Assembly: GCF_012933555.1 (NCBI RefSeq)
Contig: NZ_JABBPK010000001.1
Location: forward strand, 3,388,001 to 3,452,000
Source: Niallia alba
Lineage (GTDB): Bacteria > Bacillota > Bacilli > Bacillales > Cytobacillaceae
DNA: 64,000 nt
Reading direction: 5' to 3'
The notes beneath the pieces are model-generated. The model did no database searches. It worked only from the letters and a program-made list of their open reading frames with translations, and was not told the DNA's origin. Shown here piece by piece: positions 1,314 to 62,179 of this stretch. The position numbers and the translations under genes are program-made. Each line of letters begins with the position of its first letter. The first letter of the stretch is position 1.

Positions 1314-1317
1314 TTCA

Positions 1318-1965
1318 TTAACCTCTTTCGTTTATTTTTTCCCCTTCCATAATCCAGACAAAATCATTCATCTTTTTGAAATGTGTAGTAAAACCATTCT
1401 TTTCTAAGAGTTCTGTTAGAATGGGGATTGTTGTATAATATTCTCTCTGTAAGTCTTCTGCTAAATTATGCTGCCCTTTTTTACTTGCATCTAGAATTGC
1501 TTGGTTGTACGCTTCTTTTGTGACATACATAGTATCAGCAAACACTATTTTACCACCTATAGGTAGAAGATTACTATACTGTTTAATCGCTTCTTCTTTT
1601 TCTTGATCGGTTAAATGATGAAATGCATAGGTACTTACAAATGTATCTGGTTTACTATCTAACTTAAATTGAAGAAAGTCACCCTCTATTAACTGTGCCT
1701 TTGCACCGATTTTTTCCTTCGCCAACTTTCTCATAGCAGGTGATGGTTCAATTGCAGTAACCTTTAAACCCTTTGCAATCAATTTTAGTGTAAGGTTTCC
1801 TGTACCAGGTCCGAATTCGACAACATGACCAGTGGAACGTTCTGCTACATTATTTAAAATATGATCATAATGGTGAAAAACTGCTTCATACTCTTTGTTA
1901 TTCGTAAGACTGTCATCATAAGAATCAGCCCATTGTTCAAATATCTCAAGGAACTCTTTTCCCAT
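1318..1965 (-). CDS. yrrT: class I SAM-dependent methyltransferase YrrT
   Basis: This 215-residue protein has the class I methyltransferase fold. Motif I is [15 protein letters not shown] near residue 48, followed by an acidic post-I position (AIEPSPAM) and [12 protein letters not shown] as motif IV. In B. subtilis yrrT leads the yrrT-mtnN-mccA-mccB operon for methionine-to-cysteine conversion under the repressor CymR. The order is the same here. An AGGAATTA stretch about 25-35 bases upstream (near 1995-2003) could be part of a CymR site, but I could not confirm a full match. SD is AGGGGTG. The substrate is not known from sequence. Confidence 0.88.
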
Positions 1966-2203
1966 AGCTTTGCACCCCTGTTGTTTAAATATATATAATT
2001 CCTATAAGTATACTATGGTTTTTAATATTACTTGTTCTTAATTTATCATATCTTCCTTTTTCTAATCAAGAATCTTTAAATAGTAGATTGAGTCAAGTTT
2101 TTGTGGGAGTTTTTTTAGCTCCCTTTTTTATAAAGTAAAACCTCTAAGTTTGTATCCGCTTTCCAATTGGTTTTGTTCTTCCAACTGTTGATTCTCTCAT
2201 TTT

Positions 2204-3541
2204 TTAAAAACCTTTTAATCCCTGTAAGGCAAAGTGAACGGGTTTTCCAATCGCTTGATTTAAGTATGGCATGTTCTGACGCACGGTTTCTGTTACTAAT
2301 TTTGTGGGTATTTTTCTTTTCGGTCGATGCTCTTTCTTTGATTTTTCCGTGGCTTTTTCCCATTTTCCATATATCGTTTGGATAGATAGATCATCCTTCA
2401 ACCCAATCCACAAACGTGCCATGCTCATGACGCCTTTTTTGCTCCATGCTCTTCCATTTTTTAATCGTTTGGCTAATTGATTCATCATTGCTTCTGCACT
2501 TCCCATTGGACGATACGCTGTCGTGTCCACGCCTTTCTCCTGTAACCAACTACGGTAATCTTTTATGGTTTCCTGATGATGCGTTAAAAAGCCGAGGAAA
2601 TGCGCTAGTTTTTCTTCTTCTTCTGGTGTATCCATTGTTCCTACTGCGCTATTCAACTCTAGAAGTAATGTTTCTACCTGGTAGTTTTTTAACGCTCTTT
2701 TCATGTAGCGGTATCGAGGATGGCTCTTCATTAGTTGCTTCATCGAACGAGCGACATGAAAACGGTCCATGGTGAAAAAGGCGCGTTCCCGAAAATACTC
2801 CCGACATGCCGTTATCCAGCCTGCTCCATCGCCATTAATAATAAGCAAGGTTTGGGTTGGATCATACGCATAATGATTCTGTAAGAATGTTTCAAAAGCT
2901 TCCCAAAAGGGTTCTTTTTCTTCATAGAGAAAATGCCTTTTATTTCGGAGCCTGACTCGCTTTCCGTTTTCTTTCCATCCCTCATGTACAGCGGCGAATT
3001 TCAACTCCCATCCACGCTTTTTCTTTTCTTGACTCTTCACATATAATCCATCTACTTCGACAAACAACACCTTTTGAAAAGGACGTTTTTCCTTAGCGGG
3101 AAGTACGCTTGTATGAAGAAGATGTTGCCGTAATGCTTCGTGGCTCATCGCCGAATAGCCTAAAAATTGTTCGAACGTTTCCACCGCCTTTCGATAGGAG
3201 GAACCATTTGTCGCTAATTCTAGCCCCCATTCTTCTAATAGTGGACTAAACCCTTTATTCCCTTGAAACTGTAAATAATGATCTAACAGACAAATATATT
3301 TTTTGGTTACACGATCGAAATAATAATTACGCTTCAGCTCCACTGCTCCAAACGCTGTATCTACTCGTATTTCTCGTTTATCTCGTAAAGCAAATCTTCT
3401 TTTGTCTCGTTGCTGAGCAATCTCTAGATCCCAATTTTCTAATGTTTGAACAAGGATTTCTTGAAAGGTCATTTGTAGTGTTCGAAATAAAGTTTTTTCC
3501 AATTCTTTTAATGATGGCATTTTTGTGTTACATTGATTCAT
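2204..3541 (-). CDS. ISLre2-family transposase (UPF0236)
   Basis: The 445-residue protein matches the UPF0236/ISLre2 transposase layout. The N-terminus is charged (about residues 1-90) and contains VDTAFGAVELKRNYYFDR. The central catalytic region holds VLFVEVDGLYVKSQ and LLIINGDGAGWI, then FTMDRFHVARSMKQL, and the GSAEAMMNQLAKRLKNGRAWS segment is near residue 360. I chose the ATG at 3541 because AAAAGGAGAG precedes it by six bases; an in-frame start 11 codons upstream lacks an SD. The reading frame is intact, so the element may be active. Confidence 0.9.
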   Translation of the reverse strand: MNQCNTKMPSLKELEKTLFRTLQMTFQEILVQTLENWDLEIAQQRDKRRFALRDKREIRVDTAFGAVELKRNYYFDRVTKKYICLLDHYLQFQGNKGFSPLLEEWGLELATNGSSYRKAVETFEQFLGYSAMSHEALRQHLLHTSVLPAKEKRPFQKVLFVEVDGLYVKSQEKKKRGWELKFAAVHEGWKENGKRVRLRNKRHFLYEEKEPFWEAFETFLQNHYAYDPTQTLLIINGDGAGWITACREYFRERAFFTMDRFHVARSMKQLMKSHPRYRYMKRALKNYQVETLLLELNSAVGTMDTPEEEEKLAHFLGFLTHHQETIKDYRSWLQEKGVDTTAYRPMGSAEAMMNQLAKRLKNGRAWSKKGVMSMARLWIGLKDDLSIQTIYGKWEKATEKSKKEHRPKRKIPTKLVTETVRQNMPYLNQAIGKPVHFALQGLKGF

Positions 3542-3647
3542 GAGAGCCTCTCCTTTTCGTAGTATTCTAGTCAAACTCTACTTTACAAAAGGAAGCTCTC
3601 TTTTTTAATACTTAATTTTTTCCAGCTACCGCGCTTTCGCTTGGTGG

Positions 3648-3693
3648 CCTTTTTGTCTAGTTGGGGGACGAGTCCCCCAACTAGACAAAAAGG
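3648..3693. repeat. 46-bp palindrome inside the ISLre2 element
   Basis: Two perfectly complementary 22-base arms (beginning CCTTTTTGTCTAG) are separated by only two bases, GA. The palindrome lies between the transposase start and the right inverted end. On either strand it would form a very stable hairpin ending in a T run (CTAGACAAAAAGG), so it may insulate the transposase gene from outside transcription. It may also serve as a binding structure for the transposase. Confidence 0.8.
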
Positions 3694-3805
3694 ATATTTA
3701 TTCTCCCACAAACATTTTACTCATACTAAATAGTAAGTTTATTCCCTATTTTGCAATAATTATTCCATCTGTTTATCTATTTTGTTATTATTCCATTATG
3801 TGCTT

Positions 3806-3815
3806 ATGGTATGAT
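3806..3815 (+). promoter_or_regulatory. possible extended -10 promoter of yrzA
   Basis: TGGTATGAT (ending at 3815) resembles an extended -10 element (TGnTATAAT) and lies about 35 bases upstream of the yrzA ATG. No good -35 is seen. This is a weak inference from sequence alone. Confidence 0.35.
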
Positions 3816-3849
3816 AATTTTACTGTTAGAAAGAAAGGAAGTTTGAAGC

Positions 3850-4062
3850 ATGAATATCCAATTAGAAATGATAGAGGATAAAGTGGAATTTTTTGAAGGG
3901 GAGAGTCTGAAGACAATTGAGAAAAAAATCAATGAACAAATTGAAGTGAATAAAGCCATTTTACTTTCTGTTCATTCCGTCTCCCATCAAGTCACTATAT
4001 TAGATAATGGTCGACCTTATTATACAGCGGTGGTTCATTTCAAAGTGAAGAAAAGTTATTAA
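3850..4062 (+). CDS. yrzA: small conserved protein YrzA (DUF2536 family)
   Basis: A 70-residue protein beginning MNIQLEMIEDKVEFFE, with the LKTIEKKINEQIEVNKAILL helix and a YTAVVHFKVK C-terminal strand. Length, sequence pattern and position next to yrrS match the Bacillus YrzA/DUF2536 family, whose function is unknown. The SD is GGAAG, and the ATG lies eight bases later. It is one of only two native genes in this window on the plus strand and is convergent with yrrS. The space between the two holds a duplicated terminator and an R2 element. Confidence 0.8.
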   Translation: MNIQLEMIEDKVEFFEGESLKTIEKKINEQIEVNKAILLSVHSVSHQVTILDNGRPYYTAVVHFKVKKSY

Positions 4063-4076
4063 AAACAAACAAAAAA

Positions 4077-4097
4077 ACTGGAGATTATTTCTCCAGC
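4077..4097. terminator. terminator hairpin, left copy of a 21-bp direct repeat
   Basis: This is a stem-loop with arms CTGGAGA and TCTCCAG around a short AT loop. On the minus strand it is followed by seven T, so it would end yrrS transcripts. The same 21 bases recur at 4312-4332 with an R2 element between, which suggests the hairpin was duplicated when R2 inserted. Confidence 0.8.
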
Positions 4098-4311
4098 CAG
4101 CCTGTAGACAAACCCCTGAATTTTAGAAATAGAGGTTTATCTATAATTTATTTATTAGTCCCTTTGAATAGGGATTTGCTTTTGCTTTCCGCTTCAGGGG
4201 TTCGCTTTCCGTGGGGCTCGCGCTGATACCACAGGAGTCTCCCCCCTTCCACTCCAAGCAACGCATGAAAATTCCATTTAAGTTTTTAAAAATCTTTTTA
4301 TCGACAAACTG
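4098..4311. repeat. R2 intergenic element, copy a, between two terminator copies
   Basis: The 214-bp element begins CAGCCTGTAGACAAACC and ends ATCGACAAACTG, so its ends are imperfect inverted repeats (CAG..TGT.GA.AAA). Inside it has a small hairpin (TAGTCCCT ... AGGGATT) and the core GGGGTTCGCTTTCCGTGGGG shared with R1 and R3. It has no plausible reading frame. A second copy (57988-58212) is arranged identically between two copies of a different terminator. Confidence 0.85.
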
Positions 4312-4332
4312 ACTGGAGATTATTTCTCCAGC
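4312..4332. terminator. terminator hairpin, right copy of the 21-bp direct repeat
   Basis: The stem-loop is identical to the one at 4077-4097. Here it is followed on the plus strand by CTTTTTT, so it would terminate yrzA transcription. The ancestral sequence was probably one bidirectional terminator (A run, hairpin, T run) between yrzA and yrrS. The R2 element now splits its A-tract side from its T-tract side. Confidence 0.8.
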
Positions 4333-4338
4333 TCTTTT

Positions 4339-4983
4339 TTACCGAATATTCAAGTCTTTTATTTCTTCTACTTTTGTCGGTTTCCATCCACTTCCATCAA
4401 CCCATTCAATATACACTCTATATTTTTCAGATTTGTCCTTGGATGATACGGTTCCAATGGATTTATGTGGATCTTGATTATTGTTGCCGAGGAACCACAA
4501 AGTCATATTCCCGCTATCTAAACCAGTCGCATAGGACAATGCTTTTATCTGCTCATTCCAATCTACACCTTCTGAATAAGAGGCAACATGTTCACCCGTT
4601 TGTGTTGTTCCAACTGGCTGCCAGGAAGAATTTTCTATCGTTTTAATGACATTAGAGTCACTGCCGCCTTCTGTGACGACTTCTCCATCTTCTGATTCCT
4701 CTTCCTCTTCCTCTTCAGTAGTAGTATTTTCATCTGTATTATCCGATCCAGTTGTTGAACTAGCTGTTTCTTTATCACCAGATGCCTGTTGCCCAGTTTT
4801 CGTATCACTATCTTTATTTTTATCAGCATTTTTTTCATCATTTGTATGAAAAATAGAATAAGATACGAAAACTATTAGTAGAATAACGACAATAATTAAT
4901 CCATTTAGAATAAAGTTTGTTTTCTTTCTTTTGGAACGTTGTTGATATCTTGTTCTACCTTCATCATTTATCTCTTTACTCAA
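4339..4983 (-). CDS. yrrS: membrane-anchored YrrS family protein (DUF1510)
   Basis: A 215-residue protein with a short basic cytoplasmic tail (RYQQRSKRKKTNF), one membrane segment at about residues 22-42 (LNGLIIVVILLIVFVSYSIF) and a long acidic, low-complexity linker (KDSDTKTG ... EEEEEEESEDGE). The C-terminal extracellular domain contains SSWQPVGTTQTGEH and GDSGW-like strands, typical of YrrS (DUF1510). It is co-directional with and downstream of the penicillin-binding protein gene pbpI, as in B. subtilis, suggesting a cell-wall role. I chose the TTG at 4983 because TAGGAGGAG lies seven bases upstream. Confidence 0.85.
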   Translation of the reverse strand: MSKEINDEGRTRYQQRSKRKKTNFILNGLIIVVILLIVFVSYSIFHTNDEKNADKNKDSDTKTGQQASGDKETASSTTGSDNTDENTTTEEEEEEESEDGEVVTEGGSDSNVIKTIENSSWQPVGTTQTGEHVASYSEGVDWNEQIKALSYATGLDSGNMTLWFLGNNNQDPHKSIGTVSSKDKSEKYRVYIEWVDGSGWKPTKVEEIKDLNIR

Positions 4984-5098
4984 GGTGTTTCTCCTCCTAT
5001 TGACTTTCCATATCCTTAAATACAAACGATTATTTTTTCACTGTACCTATTTTAACATGGTAGTGTACTTTTAGAAAAGCAAGAACCATATATGTCTA

Positions 5099-17063: not shown

Positions 17064-17325
17064 AAAAAAAACTCCCATCCCTGGACAGGGACGAAAGTAT
17101 TGCTCGCGGTACCACCCTGATTATGGATAAAAGTATACAAAGACACTTAAAAATTTCTATCCATCTCTCAATACTCCTTAACGCGGAAAACGGCAGTGAT
17201 TAGCTGCACTCAAGAATTAGCTTTCAATTATCCTTCACTTGAAACTCCTTTCAGCCTAAGGGAATTTCTCTCTTTAAAGTGGTCTATAATCTACTTGTTT
17301 CTTTCACCATTTTTTCGATATATGC
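17064..17325 (-). promoter_or_regulatory. T-box riboswitch leader of alaS
   Basis: On the minus strand the leader contains the conserved T-box AGGGTGGTACCGCG (within 17103-17119). A terminator hairpin (GTCCCTG ... CAGGGA, then GGGAG and eight T) follows at 17064-17097. Upstream, AAAGCTA at 17218-17224 could present GCU as the alanine specifier codon (17219-17221), though I did not fold Stem I fully. Uncharged tRNA-Ala pairing with UGGU would favour the antiterminator. Confidence 0.9.
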
Positions 17326-22537: not shown

Positions 22538-22909
22538 GGTTGGGACATAACTAAATAGATACTCTGTAAAGACGAACAATTTCTAATCTAGCTAGTAAAT
22601 AGCAGCTGCTTTCGCATACTTTTTACAAGAGGAAATATAATTAGTTGGAAAAACAGAGCAGCCGGAATACACGAAGACGCCAAGGGGATTAGCGAGACAG
22701 TCTGAGACCCCGGAGGAGAAGCTGAGGAAGCTTAAGCTTAGCCCCACGGAAAGCGAAGTGTATTCCGGCTGCGGGGAATTGCACTAAACTTCATGGAAAC
22801 ATCCTTTTAAAAACAAATAAAAAACCAAACAATTATACGGAACTTTTATTAGTATCTTCGTATAATTGTTTGGATTTATCTTTGGCTGGAATACTTATGT
22901 CCCAGTCCC
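22538..22909. repeat. composite repeat: R1 core (copy c) inside R4 ends
   Basis: The outer ends are GGTTGGGACATAAC (22538) and TTATGTCCCAGTCCC (ending 22909), an inverted pair. Within them an R1 core in reverse orientation runs from GCAGCCGGAATACAC (22658) to GTGTATTCCGGCTGC (22772). Its 15-base arms are perfectly complementary and enclose the usual GAGACAGTCTGAGACCCCGG and GCCCCACGGAAAGCG. The R4 part nearest mnmA includes a terminator (22819-22873). The 518 bases between yrrB and mnmA hold no gene. Confidence 0.8.
22819..22873 (-). terminator. mnmA terminator carried by the R4 repeat
   Basis: Arms CCAAACAATTATACG and CGTATAATTGTTTGG are perfect 15-base complements around a 19-base loop. 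On the minus strand they are followed by a TTTTTTA tract. The hairpin starts 45 bases past the mnmA stop. A near copy follows the M20 gene (27222-27276). Confidence 0.85.
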
Positions 22910-27114: not shown

Positions 27115-27312
27115 ACTTCCCATAGGAATAATATGACAAGGAGGCTTGGCACTCGTCCCACGGAAAGCGAAATGTATTTAGTCTGGGGGTGATAACCACA
27201 AACCATCTTTGTAAAATGAATAAAAAACCCAAACAATTATACGAATTTTTTTAGCATCTTCGTGTAATTGTTTAGGTTTATATTTGGTTGGAATACTTAT
27301 GTCCCAGCCCAT
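27115..27312 (-). repeat. degenerate R1 core (copy e) joined to R4 (copy b)
   Basis: AGGAGGCTTGGCACTCGTCC and CACGGAAAGCGAAATGTATTT are recognisable R1 core pieces in reverse orientation. They are followed by the R4 right half with its hairpin and the end ATACTTATGTCCCAGCCC. The join matches copy c at 22538-22909, so R1 within R4 may be an old, jointly moving arrangement. With the promoter above, these are the only features seen in the 470 bases between the YczE-like gene and the M20 gene. Confidence 0.65.
27222..27276 (-). terminator. terminator of the racemase operon, carried by R4
   Basis: CCCAAACAATTATACGA and a near-complementary CGTGTAATTGTTTAGG flank a short loop. T run TTTTTTA follows on the minus strand. 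The loop and arms closely resemble those of the mnmA terminator. Confidence 0.8.
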
Positions 27313-52372: not shown

Positions 52373-52645
52373 CAAAAAAAATCTCGTCCCTTGCATCCAT
52401 CTGAATACAAGGGACGAGATTCTTCCCGTGGTACCACCCTAATTGAAGATTATCATAAATCTTCCACTTTGCAGTTAACGCCTGCTCACGTTTCTACCTA
52501 CTAATGAAGCAATATTTTCAGAAGAAAGCCTCCCAGAGTGTTCTTTCTCTAAGTCATCATGTAGAAATGCTTGCAGCCTTATGGACATTTCCTCTCTGTT
52601 CATGTGTCTCTTAGATACTTTTCTCGATCAATAGCTTTACTTGAT
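52373..52645 (-). promoter_or_regulatory. T-box riboswitch leader of hisS-aspS
   Basis: The conserved T-box AGGGTGGTACCACGGG (minus strand, about 52425-52440) is followed by a terminator with arms AATCTCGTCCCTTG and CAAGGGACGAGATT and eight T (52373-52421). In the Stem I region TCTAAG pairs with CTTAGA, and GAC (52553-52555) sits at the expected specifier position, an aspartate codon. If so, both synthetases respond to uncharged tRNA-Asp. Stem I was folded by eye only. Confidence 0.9.
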
Positions 52646-55505: not shown

Positions 55506-57701
55506 TTAGTTCATTATTCTTCGCACAGAATAGACATCTGGAATTTGCTTAATTCGATCTACAACTTTATGAAGGTGATTTACATTTAAAATCATAATAC
55601 TCATGTTAATTGTCGCGACTTTATTCCGATCAGACTTACCAGATACTGCTGAGATATTAGTTTTCGATTCATTTACTGCTTGTAGAACCTCATTTAATAA
55701 ACCTCTTCTGTCATAGCCACTTATTTCAATTTCAACATTATATTCTTTACGATTATTTAAATTCGTTTCCCATTCAACAGGAATTAGTCGAGCTTTTGCA
55801 TCGTCTGTATCAATATTAGTACAATCTGCACGATGGACAGAAACTCCTCTTCCTTTTGTGATAAATCCGACTATTTCATCACCTGGAACTGGATTACAAC
55901 AGCGGGATAAACGGATGAGTAAATTATCAATTCCAGTTACTCGAACACCTGAAGCACTTTTTTTATTATTAGGAAAGGATTTTAATTCAGCAACAGCATT
56001 TGTTATGGTAGATACTTGTTCTGCATCTCTTTTCTTACGCCATTTTTCTGTTAATCGATTTGCTACTTGAAGTGCAGTTATTCCATTATAACCAACAGCT
56101 GCATACATATCCTCTTCTGTCATAAAATTAAATTTCTCAATCACAGCCTTCACATTATCCGGAGTAAGAATTTCTTTGATATCAAATTCCATATTGCGAA
56201 TTTCTTTTTCAACTAATTCCTGGCCTTTTTCGATATTCTCTTCTCGGCGCTGCTTTTTGAAAAATTGTCTAATTTTATTTTTTGCTTGAGAGGTTTGTGC
56301 TATCTTTAACCAATCTTGACTTGGTCCGTAAGAATGTTTACTCGTATGAATTTCAATAATATCGCCTGTTTTTAATTTATAATCAAGGGTTACCATCTTG
56401 CCATTTACTTTAGCTCCAATGGTTTTATTCCCTATCTCTGAATGAACGCGGTAAGCAAAGTCAATTGGTACAGAGCCTGAAGGTAACTCAAACACATCTC
56501 CTTTTGGTGTAAAAACAAAAACCATATCGGAAAATAAATCAATTTTCAGACTTTCCATAAACTCTTCCGCATTGACGATATCATCTTGGAATTCAAGTAT
56601 TTCTCTAAACCAAGTTAATTTTTCTTCTAGTGAGGATCCTTCATTTACTGATTTCCCCTCTTTGTATGCCCAATGTGCTGCAATCCCATATTCAGCAATC
56701 CGATGCATGTCTTGGGTACGAATTTGCACTTCTAAAGGATCACCCTTCGGTCCAATTACAGTTGTGTGTAAAGATTGATACATATTAGCCTTTGGCATGG
56801 CAATATAATCTTTAAAGCGCCCTGGCATTGGCTTCCATCTAGTATGAATAATTCCTAATATCGCATAGCAATCTTTAATACTATTTACGACAATTCTTAC
56901 TGCTAGCAAATCGTATATCTCATTAAATTGTTTGTTCTGTAAAACCATTTTACGGTAAATGCTATAGATATGCTTCGGTCTTCCTGAAATATCTGCCTGT
57001 ATATTTACTTCTGCTGTTCCTTCACGAATTTCAGTAACTACCTCATCTAAGTATTGTTCTCTTTCTGCTCTTTTCTTCTTCATTAAGTTAACAATACGAT
57101 AATATTGCTGTGGATTCATATAGCGTAATGCTGTATCCTCTAGTTCCCATTTAATTGTGGAGATTCCAAGACGATGAGCTAGTGGGGCAAAAATTTCTAA
57201 TGTTTCATTAGAAATACGACGCTGTTTTTCTGCAGGTAAATGCTTCAATGTTCTCATGTTATGGAGCCTATCTGCAAGTTTAATTAAAATAACACGAATA
57301 TCTTGTGCCATTGCAACAAACATTTTGCGATGATTCTCTGCTTGCTGTTCTTCATGCGATTTATATTTAATTTTCCCGAGCTTCGTTACACCGTCAACGA
57401 GCATGGCCACTTCACTGTTAAATGCTTTACTTATATCTTCTAAAGTAATTTCCGTATCTTCAACAACGTCATGGAGAAAACCTGCTGCTACAGTTGCTGG
57501 ATCCATTTCTAAATCAGCCAAAATACCTGCTACTTGGATTGGATGAATAATATATGGTTCCCCAGATTTCCTATATTGTTCACGATGAGCCTCTCTTGCA
57601 TAGTCATAGGCTTTTTCAATAAAAGCTACGTGCTCTCCGTTTAAATATCCTCTAGTCTTATCGATGACTTGTTCGGCGGTTAATACTTGATCATTCGCCA
57701 T
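55506..57701 (-). CDS. relA: (p)ppGpp synthetase/hydrolase RelA (Rel)
   Basis: A 731-residue bifunctional Rel protein. The HD hydrolase domain (about 40-190) has [13 protein letters not shown] and [29 protein letters not shown]. The synthetase domain (about 225-340) has [11 protein letters not shown] and [22 protein letters not shown]. The TGS domain (about 395-455), helical and CC-type regions ([10 protein letters not shown]-like near 580) and an ACT domain at the C-terminus follow. It mediates the stringent response. The ATG at 57701 is chosen because GAAAGGTG precedes it; this matches B. subtilis RelA (MANxQVLTAEQ). Confidence 0.96.
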
Positions 57702-57960
57702 GTAATCACCTTTCATATCACGATTATATTATTTAAATGTATCATATTTTAGACATTCTTTCTATCCTACTACTTTTATGCGAAATTACAAAAAAGAATA
57801 AAATTTATTTTAGAATGATTATTACTATTATCGAAAAAAAAACGAAGAATGTAAAGGGATTGGAAGGAAATTTTATGGAGAATCATAGAAAAATGTCGAA
57901 TAAAGGCGATTTTTATAAAAATTCCATGAATTTATTTCCTTATTTCCCATTTAAAATAAA

Positions 57961-57987
57961 AAAGAGCGCTCTTTATAAACGCTCTTT
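57961..57987. terminator. terminator hairpin, left copy of a 27-bp direct repeat
   Basis: AAAGAGCGCTC..TATAAACGCTCTTT forms a stem-loop preceded by an A run, so it can terminate minus-strand (apt) transcripts. It matches 57961-57987 against 58213-58239 at 25 of 27 positions; an R2 element lies between. Confidence 0.8.
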
Positions 57988-58212
57988 CAGACTGTAGACA
58001 AACCCCTAATTATTTAAAATAGAAGTTTGTATATAGCATATTTATTAGTCCCTTTGAAGAGGGATGTTACTTTCCGCTCCAGGGGTTCGCTTTCCGTGGG
58101 GCTCGCGCTGAGCCGCGGTCTGCCTTTGGCCTGCAGGGTCTCACCCCTTCCACTCCAAGCAACGCATAAAAATTCCATTTAACTTTTTAAAAATCTTTTT
58201 GTCTACATACTG
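57988..58212. repeat. R2 intergenic element, copy b, between two terminator copies
   Basis: A 225-bp element with ends CAGACTGTAGACAAACC and TTTGTCTACATACTG (clear inverted repeats). It has the inner hairpin TAGTCCCTTTGAAGAGGGA and the core GGGGTTCGCTTTCCGTGGGGC ... CAGGGTCTCACCCC. The tail CCACTCCAAGCAACGCAT is nearly identical to copy a. Together with the flanking terminators it accounts for the gene-free space between relA and apt; the remaining bases upstream of relA (57702-57960) are AT-rich and show no gene. Confidence 0.85.
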
Positions 58213-58239
58213 AAAGAGCGCTCATTATAAGCGCTCTTT
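58213..58239 (-). terminator. terminator hairpin, right copy of the 27-bp direct repeat (apt terminator)
   Basis: AAAGAGCGC and GCGCTCTTT pair perfectly around TCATTATAA. It lies 35 bases past the apt stop and would be the first terminator reached; the left copy lies beyond the R2 element. Confidence 0.8.
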
Positions 58240-58273: not shown

Positions 58274-58786
58274 TTAATATTCCATTAATGTTAATATATC
58301 ATATCCATCTAAATTTTTACGTCCTTCAAGATAAGATAATTCAATTAAGAATGCGATACCTGCAACAACTCCACCAAGCTCTTCTACTAATTTAATTGTT
58401 GCCTCAATTGTGCCGCCAGTCGCTAATAAATCATCTGTAATTAACACACGTTGACCTGGTTTAATTGCATCCTTATGGATTGTTAATACGTCTTTTCCAT
58501 ACTCTAATCCATATTCTACTTTAATTGTTTCTCTAGGTAATTTCCCTTCTTTACGAACTGGAGCAAAACCTACTCCTAGAGAATAAGCAACAGGACAGCC
58601 AATGATAAAGCCTCTTGCTTCTGGTCCTACAACAAGATCAATTTCCTTTTCTTTTGCATACGCTACTATTTGATCTGTTGCATATCTATATGCTTCTCCA
58701 TTATCCATTAATGTTGTAATATCCTTGAATCTGATCCCTTCTTTTGGCCAATCTTCAACGATGGTAACATATTGTTTTAAATCCAT
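58274..58786 (-). CDS. apt: adenine phosphoribosyltransferase
   Basis: A 170-residue purine salvage enzyme making AMP from adenine and PRPP. Visible are the N-terminal [48 protein letters not shown] and the PRPP loop [17 protein letters not shown]. Length and motifs are standard. Its start overlaps the end of recJ by ten bases, indicating translational coupling. It is followed by the terminator duplication with R2. Confidence 0.96.
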
Positions 58787-61969: not shown

Positions 61970-62179
61970 GGCTGTTTTCGTAAAGTTTGTTGCGATTACC
62001 CGCAGCCGGAATATCACTTCATTTTCCGTGGAGCTAAGCTTAAGCCTCCTCAGATTCGCCTCCGGGGTCTCAGGCTGTTTCGCTAATCCCCGTGGCGTCC
62101 TCGTGTATTCCGGCTGCTCCGTTTTTCCAATTAATTCTTTTTTTCTATTGAAAAAACAACAATCCTTTTGAAAACAGCC
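61970..62179 (+). repeat. R1 intergenic element, copy g (best preserved ends)
   Basis: A 210-bp element from GGCTGTTTTCGTAAAG to CCTTTTGAAAACAGCC. TTTGTTG and CAACAA continue the inverted ends inward, and the inner arms GCAGCCGGAATATCAC and GTGTATTCCGGCTGC flank the core (TTTTCCGTGGAGC ... GCCTCCGGGGTCTCAGGCTG). It lies directly beyond the T tract of the secDF terminator. The rest of 61757-62233 shows no gene. Confidence 0.85.

Follow-up and report, generated by a model that had tools for sequence, protein, structure and literature searches.

How does a short repeat element come to lie between two complete copies of one transcription terminator hairpin? This question is raised by a 214-bp element that separates two convergent genes in the window, i.e., the whole stretch of 64,000 nucleotides from Niallia alba analyzed here. 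The element is termed R2, a label of the initial annotation that is unrelated to the eukaryotic R2 retrotransposon.

R2 copies in the window and their empty sites

The first copy of R2 spans positions 4098-4311 on the + strand, has CAG...CTG ends of the IS1182 type (see below), carries no transposase gene and is repeated in the genome. Its sequence runs CAGCCTGTAGACAAA...TTTATCGACAAACTG, where CAGCCTGTAGACAAA (4098-4112, + strand) is the left terminal inverted repeat; the right one (4297-4311, - strand) reads CAGTTTGTCGATAAA inwards, and each is one base away from the R2 consensus. Upstream lies a gene of 70 aa (3850-4062, + strand) that is matched in 13 of 13 genus genomes including its own, and the convergent gene on the other side comprises 228 aa as listed open reading frame (4339-5025, - strand); for these we use the labels yrzA and yrrS of the initial annotation. 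That annotation had described the element as enclosed by a perfect 21-bp direct repeat forming a stem-loop, and its coordinates proved exact: the repeat ACTGGAGATTATTTCTCCAGC occupies 4077-4097 on the left and 4312-4332 on the right. Each repeat folds into arms CTGGAGA/TCTCCAG (7 pairs) around a TTATT loop, with a predicted DNA folding energy of -6.4 kcal/mol (z -7.71) that none of 200 shuffled sequences equaled in stability.

The two hairpins differ in what adjoins them, again as initially described. AAAAAA precedes the left hairpin, which is thus followed by a T run on the - strand and is the predicted terminator of yrrS, and TCTTTTTT trails the right hairpin on the + strand, the predicted terminator of yrzA. 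A terminator scan agrees, placing a - strand site at 4098-4076 on the left hairpin and a + strand site at 4313-4331 on the right one; together with an extra + strand site within the element (4157-4176), this gives three sites around copy 1 vs a shuffle mean of 0.6. A gene for an ISLre2-family transposase (NF033529; 2204-3574, - strand) is found immediately upstream of yrzA. We considered mobilization of R2 by this element and rejected it, as it belongs to a different family.

The second copy of R2 (225 bp; 57988-58212, + strand) shows the same arrangement, which confirms the earlier reading of both window copies. It is located downstream of a 170-aa gene (58274-58786, - strand), which we call apt, as did the initial annotation; the next gene (55506-57716) is encoded on the same strand. 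Copy 2 splits the terminator of apt and lies between two 27-bp hairpins at 57961-57987 and 58213-58239, which differ from each other at 2 of 27 bases. The left hairpin retains an A tract, which on the - strand reads as the T run of the apt terminator; on the right-hand side, the T tract is weak (GTTTAAAA).

The initial annotation had suggested that the duplicated hairpin was originally one bidirectional terminator. We inspected the corresponding sites by eye in 12 congeners, at the yrzA-yrrS spacer over 140 bases past the gene. Four of them (G001, G002, G004 and G010) contain the same CTGGAG/CTCCAG hairpin once and no R2, and the spacer of the other eight holds a different hairpin. In the four congeners sharing the stem, the A tract is present, but only a weak T tract follows (GTTTCAC, two instances of GTTCGAG, and GTTCTTTCC). 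Thus, the single ancestral hairpin stands, and the two tracts are borne out only in part. At the apt site, all 12 congeners show a hairpin followed by T's with no adjacent R2; the stem is of the GAGCGCT type in most of them, and G006 has another stem, with an R1/R2-like module lying further on. These empty sites bear on the simplest explanation, namely that R2 brought the flanking hairpins along as part of its own sequence or that two paired terminators pre-existed. The bare arrangement in the window would allow for either, but the hairpin sequence varies from site to site, which rules out the former, and relatives without the element carry a single hairpin, which rules out the latter. We therefore give this explanation practically no weight.

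R2 and its relatives across genomes

We collected further copies of R2 from the 5.24-Mb host genome by repeat match and by an end-pattern search. The repeat match returned 47 matches, of which 8 covered only positions 103-143 of the query, a module shared with the dispersed repeat R1; the remaining 39 pieces represent 31 copies, to which the end-pattern search added two. The genome thus contains at least 33 copies or remnants of R2, a lower bound because only 40 of the 221 candidates were scored. Copies without large inserts range from 149 to 286 bp, and R2 displays the hallmarks of a bacterial miniature inverted-repeat element (MITE): it is short, multicopy, devoid of a transposase gene and equipped with inverted ends and a target duplication. 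A script detected a duplicated flank at 15 of the 33 copies. These repeats measure 18-44 bp with 0-4 mismatches, and not the 4 bp seen for some IS1182 members; they consist of the local hairpin and differ at each site. Inside the duplication, a Watson-Crick stem score of at least 6 was reached in 12 of the 15 copies and a score of 4-5 in the other three; a T or A tract accompanies 14 of the 15. The initial proposal that structure and not sequence is recognized is well supported.

Copies without a scripted duplication mostly miss one end, although about five or six two-ended copies (e.g., 1970758 and 1463169) gave no duplication by script either, and the copy at 2972950 shows only a 9-bp flank match by eye. 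We also scored hairpins abutting the ends, i.e., with their base at most 4 bases from the element. Of the recognizable ends, 29 of 31 on the left and 17 of 22 on the right scored at least 6; this threshold is loose, since 507 of 3000 random positions passed it as well. At a score of at least 8, the counts were 24 of 31 and 13 of 22 vs 110 of 3000 positions drawn at random and 209 of 3000 drawn from intergenic parts of the window; the single-ended copy at 3592745 is tallied on both sides in these counts.

Several other repeats share the genome with R2. A second miniature family of 169 bp (CAGGCTGTCGAGAAA...CTACAATCTG) is flanked by duplicated hairpins, judged by eye, at 315973, 742202 and 1573782 and also at 640834, where the right end is eroded; its remnant at 2519544 lacks a duplicated hairpin. 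A near-perfect long palindrome is found at about 3610-3720 of the window around ctagttgggggac/gtcccccaactag, and a second copy with shared surroundings at about 641,050-641,150 of the genome (L076) adjoins a copy of the 169-bp MITE. The dispersed repeat R1, whose module reads TTCGCTTTCCGTGGGGCT...GTCTC, occurs in the window at 429-594, 22620-22799, 27140-27203 and 61975-62155. The central part of R2 (about 4199-4240) consists of an R1-like module, and 8 more places among the genome matches listed match this module alone. The window also holds two T-box leaders (17084-17316 and 52407-52640, both - strand). As these are its only Rfam matches at gathering threshold, with none in R2, we discarded the idea that R2 is a known structured RNA.

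The family of R2 can be assigned from its ends. The 15-bp consensus ends CAGACTGTAGACAAA / CAGTTTGTCGACAAA, from which the window copies deviate by 0-2 bases per end, are identical at both ends to those of two longer elements: one with an R2-type transposase from another genus of the same bacterial family (L257), and a 710-bp deletion derivative from the congener G005 (L164), which combines transposase remnants with R2 consensus ends and sits between two near-identical hairpins. As R2 thereby shares its ends with IS1182-family elements of the same bacterial family, it is best read, from its sequence, as an IS1182-type MITE. The host genome itself contains a 1575-bp insertion sequence (IS) with related ends, whose transposase is split across two frames and whose flanks show no clear duplication. 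Its relative in G006 (L166; L175 in the first survey described below) is 94% identical over the searched part, measures 1576 bp, encodes an open transposase of 450 aa and is bounded by a perfect 31-bp duplicated hairpin. This transposase matches the model NF033551 transpos_IS1182 with 488 bits (cut-off 270; E 3e-146), and the broken pieces of an R2-type transposase in L161 match it with 154 and 80 bits, which is under the whole-protein cut-off. The transposase belongs to the DDE class (PF13751); residues D146 and E403 are conserved in all 96 relatives and D276 in 95 of them, and the three are presumably catalytic.

Among the matches listed in 13 genus genomes, we found no intact R2-type transposase, which suggests that R2 is probably not moving in these genomes now. 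Other genera of the family contain long open frames (many of about 450-500 aa), most of which share 73-79% identity with the G005 remnant across the searched part. Five genomes (G121, G170, G172, G119 and G061) hold 13-20 R2-type transposase matches each, many of them equal in score and with long open frames, and would be a good system to catch fresh insertions.

We surveyed full-size relatives of R2 in two rounds. The first took the best 80 of 296 confirmed candidates, of which 59 had both ends found and 21 gave no end pair. Of the 59, 45 are flanked by a duplicated complete hairpin whose two copies span 16-31 bp and differ by no more than 2 mismatches; beyond these 45, L214 has one with 3 mismatches, and L242 has a 23-bp duplicated hairpin that the script missed. 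Hosts of the 45 include Bacillaceae, rhizobia, Burkholderia, Brucella oryzae and a clostridial MAG. For the second round, directed at the R2-type group, 89 loci were given to the script, and four yielded no end pair. Here, 81 of 85 (79 distinct) carry a duplicated hairpin, 16-36 bp in length and once about 53 bp. The duplicated complete hairpins of these full-size relatives usually possess a terminator tract. A variation of flanking-repeat length among copies, as the initial annotation expected, is thus found both for R2 (18-44 bp) and for the full-size relatives (16-31 and 16-53 bp). Chance does not account for such repeats: when flanks of related elements were paired in mismatched combinations, a direct repeat of at least 14 bp with at most 10% mismatch appeared in 4 of 7140 pairs, and the two loci that had been fetched twice and are contained in this set would explain the four.

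By script, the pattern is absent in 14 of 59 elements of the first survey and 4 of 85 of the second. The exceptions in the first survey include plain 7-8-bp repeats, loci at contig edges or with mis-found ends, and elements such as L216 and L229, whose hairpins differ between the two sides and could be the product of recombination between copies. Two elements from Paenibacillaceae (L210 and L211), which form a group in the tree described below, show plain target repeats of 7-8 bp with no hairpin and lend themselves as a natural contrast when the structure preference is to be mapped. Two loci of G121 deserve separate mention. In L294 (element at about 1314-3073), a palindrome of ~53 bp is duplicated with 5 mismatches, and its right copy has seemingly grown by a repeated internal unit. 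The hairpins flanking L298 (element at about 1969-3728) share the stem GCATCCAA/TTGGATGC and differ elsewhere, as if by changes that preserve pairing or by recombination that brought two hairpins together.

Other elements of the host genome behave differently. Another IS present in five copies (L064-L068), with a weak match to PF13751, shows no duplicated hairpin by eye and served as our negative control. Two further PF13751 transposons (L087 and L088) are likewise without hairpin duplication, and their GAGGCTGGGACA ends look IS1272-like to us. L088 (within 712500-718500; element at about 2643-4472) has an A run on its left, a T-rich stretch on its right and no hairpin, as expected if a terminator hairpin had been replaced; a search for an orthologous empty site of L088 found none. 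Such removal of the hairpin with no duplication is not what we see at the window copies and most relatives of R2, which have hairpins on both sides. In a tree of 42 transposases, the hairpin-duplicating elements are spread over several branches. Since L343 and L250 have a branch length of 10 (probably due to wrong ORFs) and the L087/L088 pair is placed on a very long branch, we draw nothing fine from this tree.

Geometry of the duplication and a proposed route

We pooled 139 distinct sites, i.e., 78 from the second survey, 46 from the first (the 45 plus L214) and 15 of R2, leaving out L294 (53 bp, 5 mismatches) and the two loci that had been fetched twice. Of the pooled sites, the 124 from IS elements had been pre-filtered by the hairpin test and the 15 from R2 by the repeat test only, so the figure of 139 is not a success rate. 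The center of the duplication coincides exactly with the dyad of the hairpin at 113 of the 139 sites and deviates by at most 2 bases at all 139, a symmetry that is favored by selection, as 124 of the sites were admitted only with a stem in the duplication. The first G:C pair lies 1-3 bases within the edge of the duplication at 107 sites, and at 115 at least one complementary pair continues past the joint, which is therefore not simply the end of the palindrome. Accordingly, the length of the duplication correlates only moderately with that of the free palindrome (r 0.44, where the best of 1000 permutations gave 0.25), since palindromes frequently extend into the A/T tract beyond the joint. In our reading, the joints are set by the G:C-clamped stem and not by the full palindrome. 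The outer bases are A..T at 87 of the 139 sites, which makes a mild sequence preference at the joint possible.

This geometry speaks against the idea that insertion is random or weakly selective and that copies survive only in terminators, with the flanking hairpins as a by-product. Terminators are indeed safe, non-coding places, and hairpins are somewhat enriched at the intergenic positions scored above. However, survival alone explains neither the joints symmetric about the dyad nor a duplication as long as the hairpin, and the five copies of the control transposon in the same genome show no duplicated hairpins by eye. We regard this explanation as very improbable.

Instead, we think it likely, on balance of all evidence, that R2 is a non-autonomous IS1182-type element whose integration is directed by a hairpin or cruciform and whose target duplication arises by gap repair. 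The part of this account that concerns an IS1182-type element duplicating whole hairpins is close to certain: the duplicated hairpins, the empty sites with a single hairpin, the ends shared with IS1182, the dyad symmetry and the variable duplication length can all be read directly from the sequences. The cruciform step is somewhat more probable than its converse. An IS1182 transposase would pair the two ends of R2 and insert them at a palindrome, probably one that belongs to an intrinsic terminator and is extruded as a hairpin or cruciform. It would join the element by its 3' ends to both 5' feet of this hairpin, in most cases 1-3 bases further out than the first G:C pair; on a cruciform, both feet would lie close together at the junction irrespective of stem length. 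Gap repair would then copy everything between the joints and thus leave the whole hairpin on either side. We infer the joining at the 5' feet, as we do the preservation of termination in vivo discussed below.

DDE enzymes join both ends to linear DNA with a short, fixed stagger, and in textbook DDE transposition the length of the duplication is a fixed property of the enzyme. Duplications of 16-53 bp are hard to reconcile with a stagger set by the protein on a linear duplex and would agree with a junction at which the two feet meet. A duplication length that tracks the fold of the target gives a direct means to test whether a DDE enzyme can integrate under the direction of structure.

Two other routes to a hairpin target have to be weighed. 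In the first, the transposase would meet the hairpin in a paused elongation complex, as RNA hairpin or as single-stranded DNA of the bubble, and then cut both DNA strands at the base of the stem. The frequency of T or A tracts favors such guidance by transcription, with 129 of the 139 pooled sites, drawn from many genomes, vs 20 of 47 strong hairpins in the window, and the joints lie near the border between G:C stem and A/T tract, where the RNA hairpin of a terminator ends. Yet a tract is missing at 10 of the 139 sites, A/T runs form part of the duplicated stem in the R2 copy at 788434, in L286 and in L333, and the excess of tracts must partly reflect survival bias, since terminators dominate among non-coding palindromes. 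We thus consider transcription guidance unlikely, if well worth bearing in mind. The same figures qualify the initial view that the element recognizes terminators: most sites have a tract, but hairpin and terminator are inseparable in the data, as, among strong palindromes, it is terminators where an insertion does the least harm. The second route, in which the target is a single-stranded hairpin on the lagging-strand template as for IS200/IS605 elements, appears less probable still. Hairpins form easily on single strands and the duplicated hairpin is stable as a single-stranded DNA fold; IS200/IS605 elements, however, are not known to have terminal inverted repeats or a target duplication, whereas both are present here along with a DDE-type transposase.

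Returning to integration at a hairpin or cruciform, the outcome has consequences for the neighboring genes. With the A tract on one hairpin copy and the T tract on the other, transcription from either direction would still run into a complete terminator once it has crossed the element. At copy 1, a transcript entering from the left would pass the hairpin without T's, cross R2 and end at the right hairpin with its T run, and the convergent transcript would do the mirror image; at copy 2, the far (left) hairpin would serve, which keeps the T run of apt. Termination should hence be delayed by about 0.2 kb, not lost. This suggests how many such elements can adjoin genes without damage by read-through, and it yields a genome-wide set of duplicated terminators for termination studies. 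Taken together, the observation of the initial annotation is correct and general, and its interpretation is supported, with the weak points named above.

More tentatively, and with slightly less than even confidence, we extend this account to a large branch of IS1182 in Bacillota and Pseudomonadota. There, a DDE transposase would integrate across a DNA four-way junction, and the target hairpin rather than the protein would set the size of the duplication (16-53 bp). Terminators would become self-restoring safe harbors, because each insertion leaves a complete terminator facing outwards, and IS1272 would carry out the same reaction with its joints at the 3' feet.

Comparison with known systems

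Insertion at hairpins is known from elements outside the IS1182 family. Group IIC introns are retroelements that are not known to carry inverted repeats or to duplicate the hairpin, and ISPpu9 reportedly targets one repeat family with conserved sequence, its own family and the outcome of insertion being said to differ from those of R2. We rejected R2 as a group IIC intron in view of its 214 bp, its inverted ends, its duplication and the Rfam matches of the window, which are the two T-boxes only. The likeness of these systems to R2, as far as the portions of the papers covered here describe it, consists in insertion at intrinsic terminator motifs and not at a long specific sequence for group IIC introns (PMC4424553), and in a palindromic, extragenic target for ISPpu9, an IS in REP palindromes (PMC8450116).

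Within the IS1182 family, two outcomes are described. ISPse1 (PMC3281130) and the Paracoccus element MITEPye1 (PMC11578231) produce direct repeats of 4 bp. Like R2, MITEPye1/ISPye18 and ISPse1 have IS1182-type ends, and MITEPye1 is a non-autonomous, intergenic element of 159 bp; unlike for R2, the parts of these reports considered describe 4-bp repeats and no hairpin duplication (PMC11578231, PMC3281130). IS1272 and TnSha1 from Staphylococcus come closer to R2, as they target hairpins, several of them confirmed terminators, with no primary sequence consensus. In contrast to R2, which duplicates the whole hairpin, they delete or replace it and generate no target duplication, according to the sections covered of both papers (PMC4923244, PMC5678879). 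Fig. 13 of the 2017 paper (PMC5678879) distinguishes two pathways: pathway a, proposed for IS1272, uses the 3' feet and loses the hairpin, and pathway b, drawn as a possibility only, duplicates the whole stem-loop. The portions of that paper covered here contain no example of pathway b.

In the open-licence PubMed Central literature covered by our search, we found no report of an IS1182 element duplicating a whole terminator hairpin. The family table of ISfinder is said to give long and variable repeat lengths for IS1182. What appears to be new, by the measure of that open-access search, is that a large branch of IS1182, together with its MITEs, regularly duplicates the whole hairpin. The targeting of palindromes by some members of the family is already in print (Siguier 2015, as cited in the parts covered of PMC4923244 and PMC5678879), which qualifies this novelty. 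Beside the two published outcomes for the IS1182 family, deletion of the hairpin or a short repeat, duplication of the hairpin constitutes a third.
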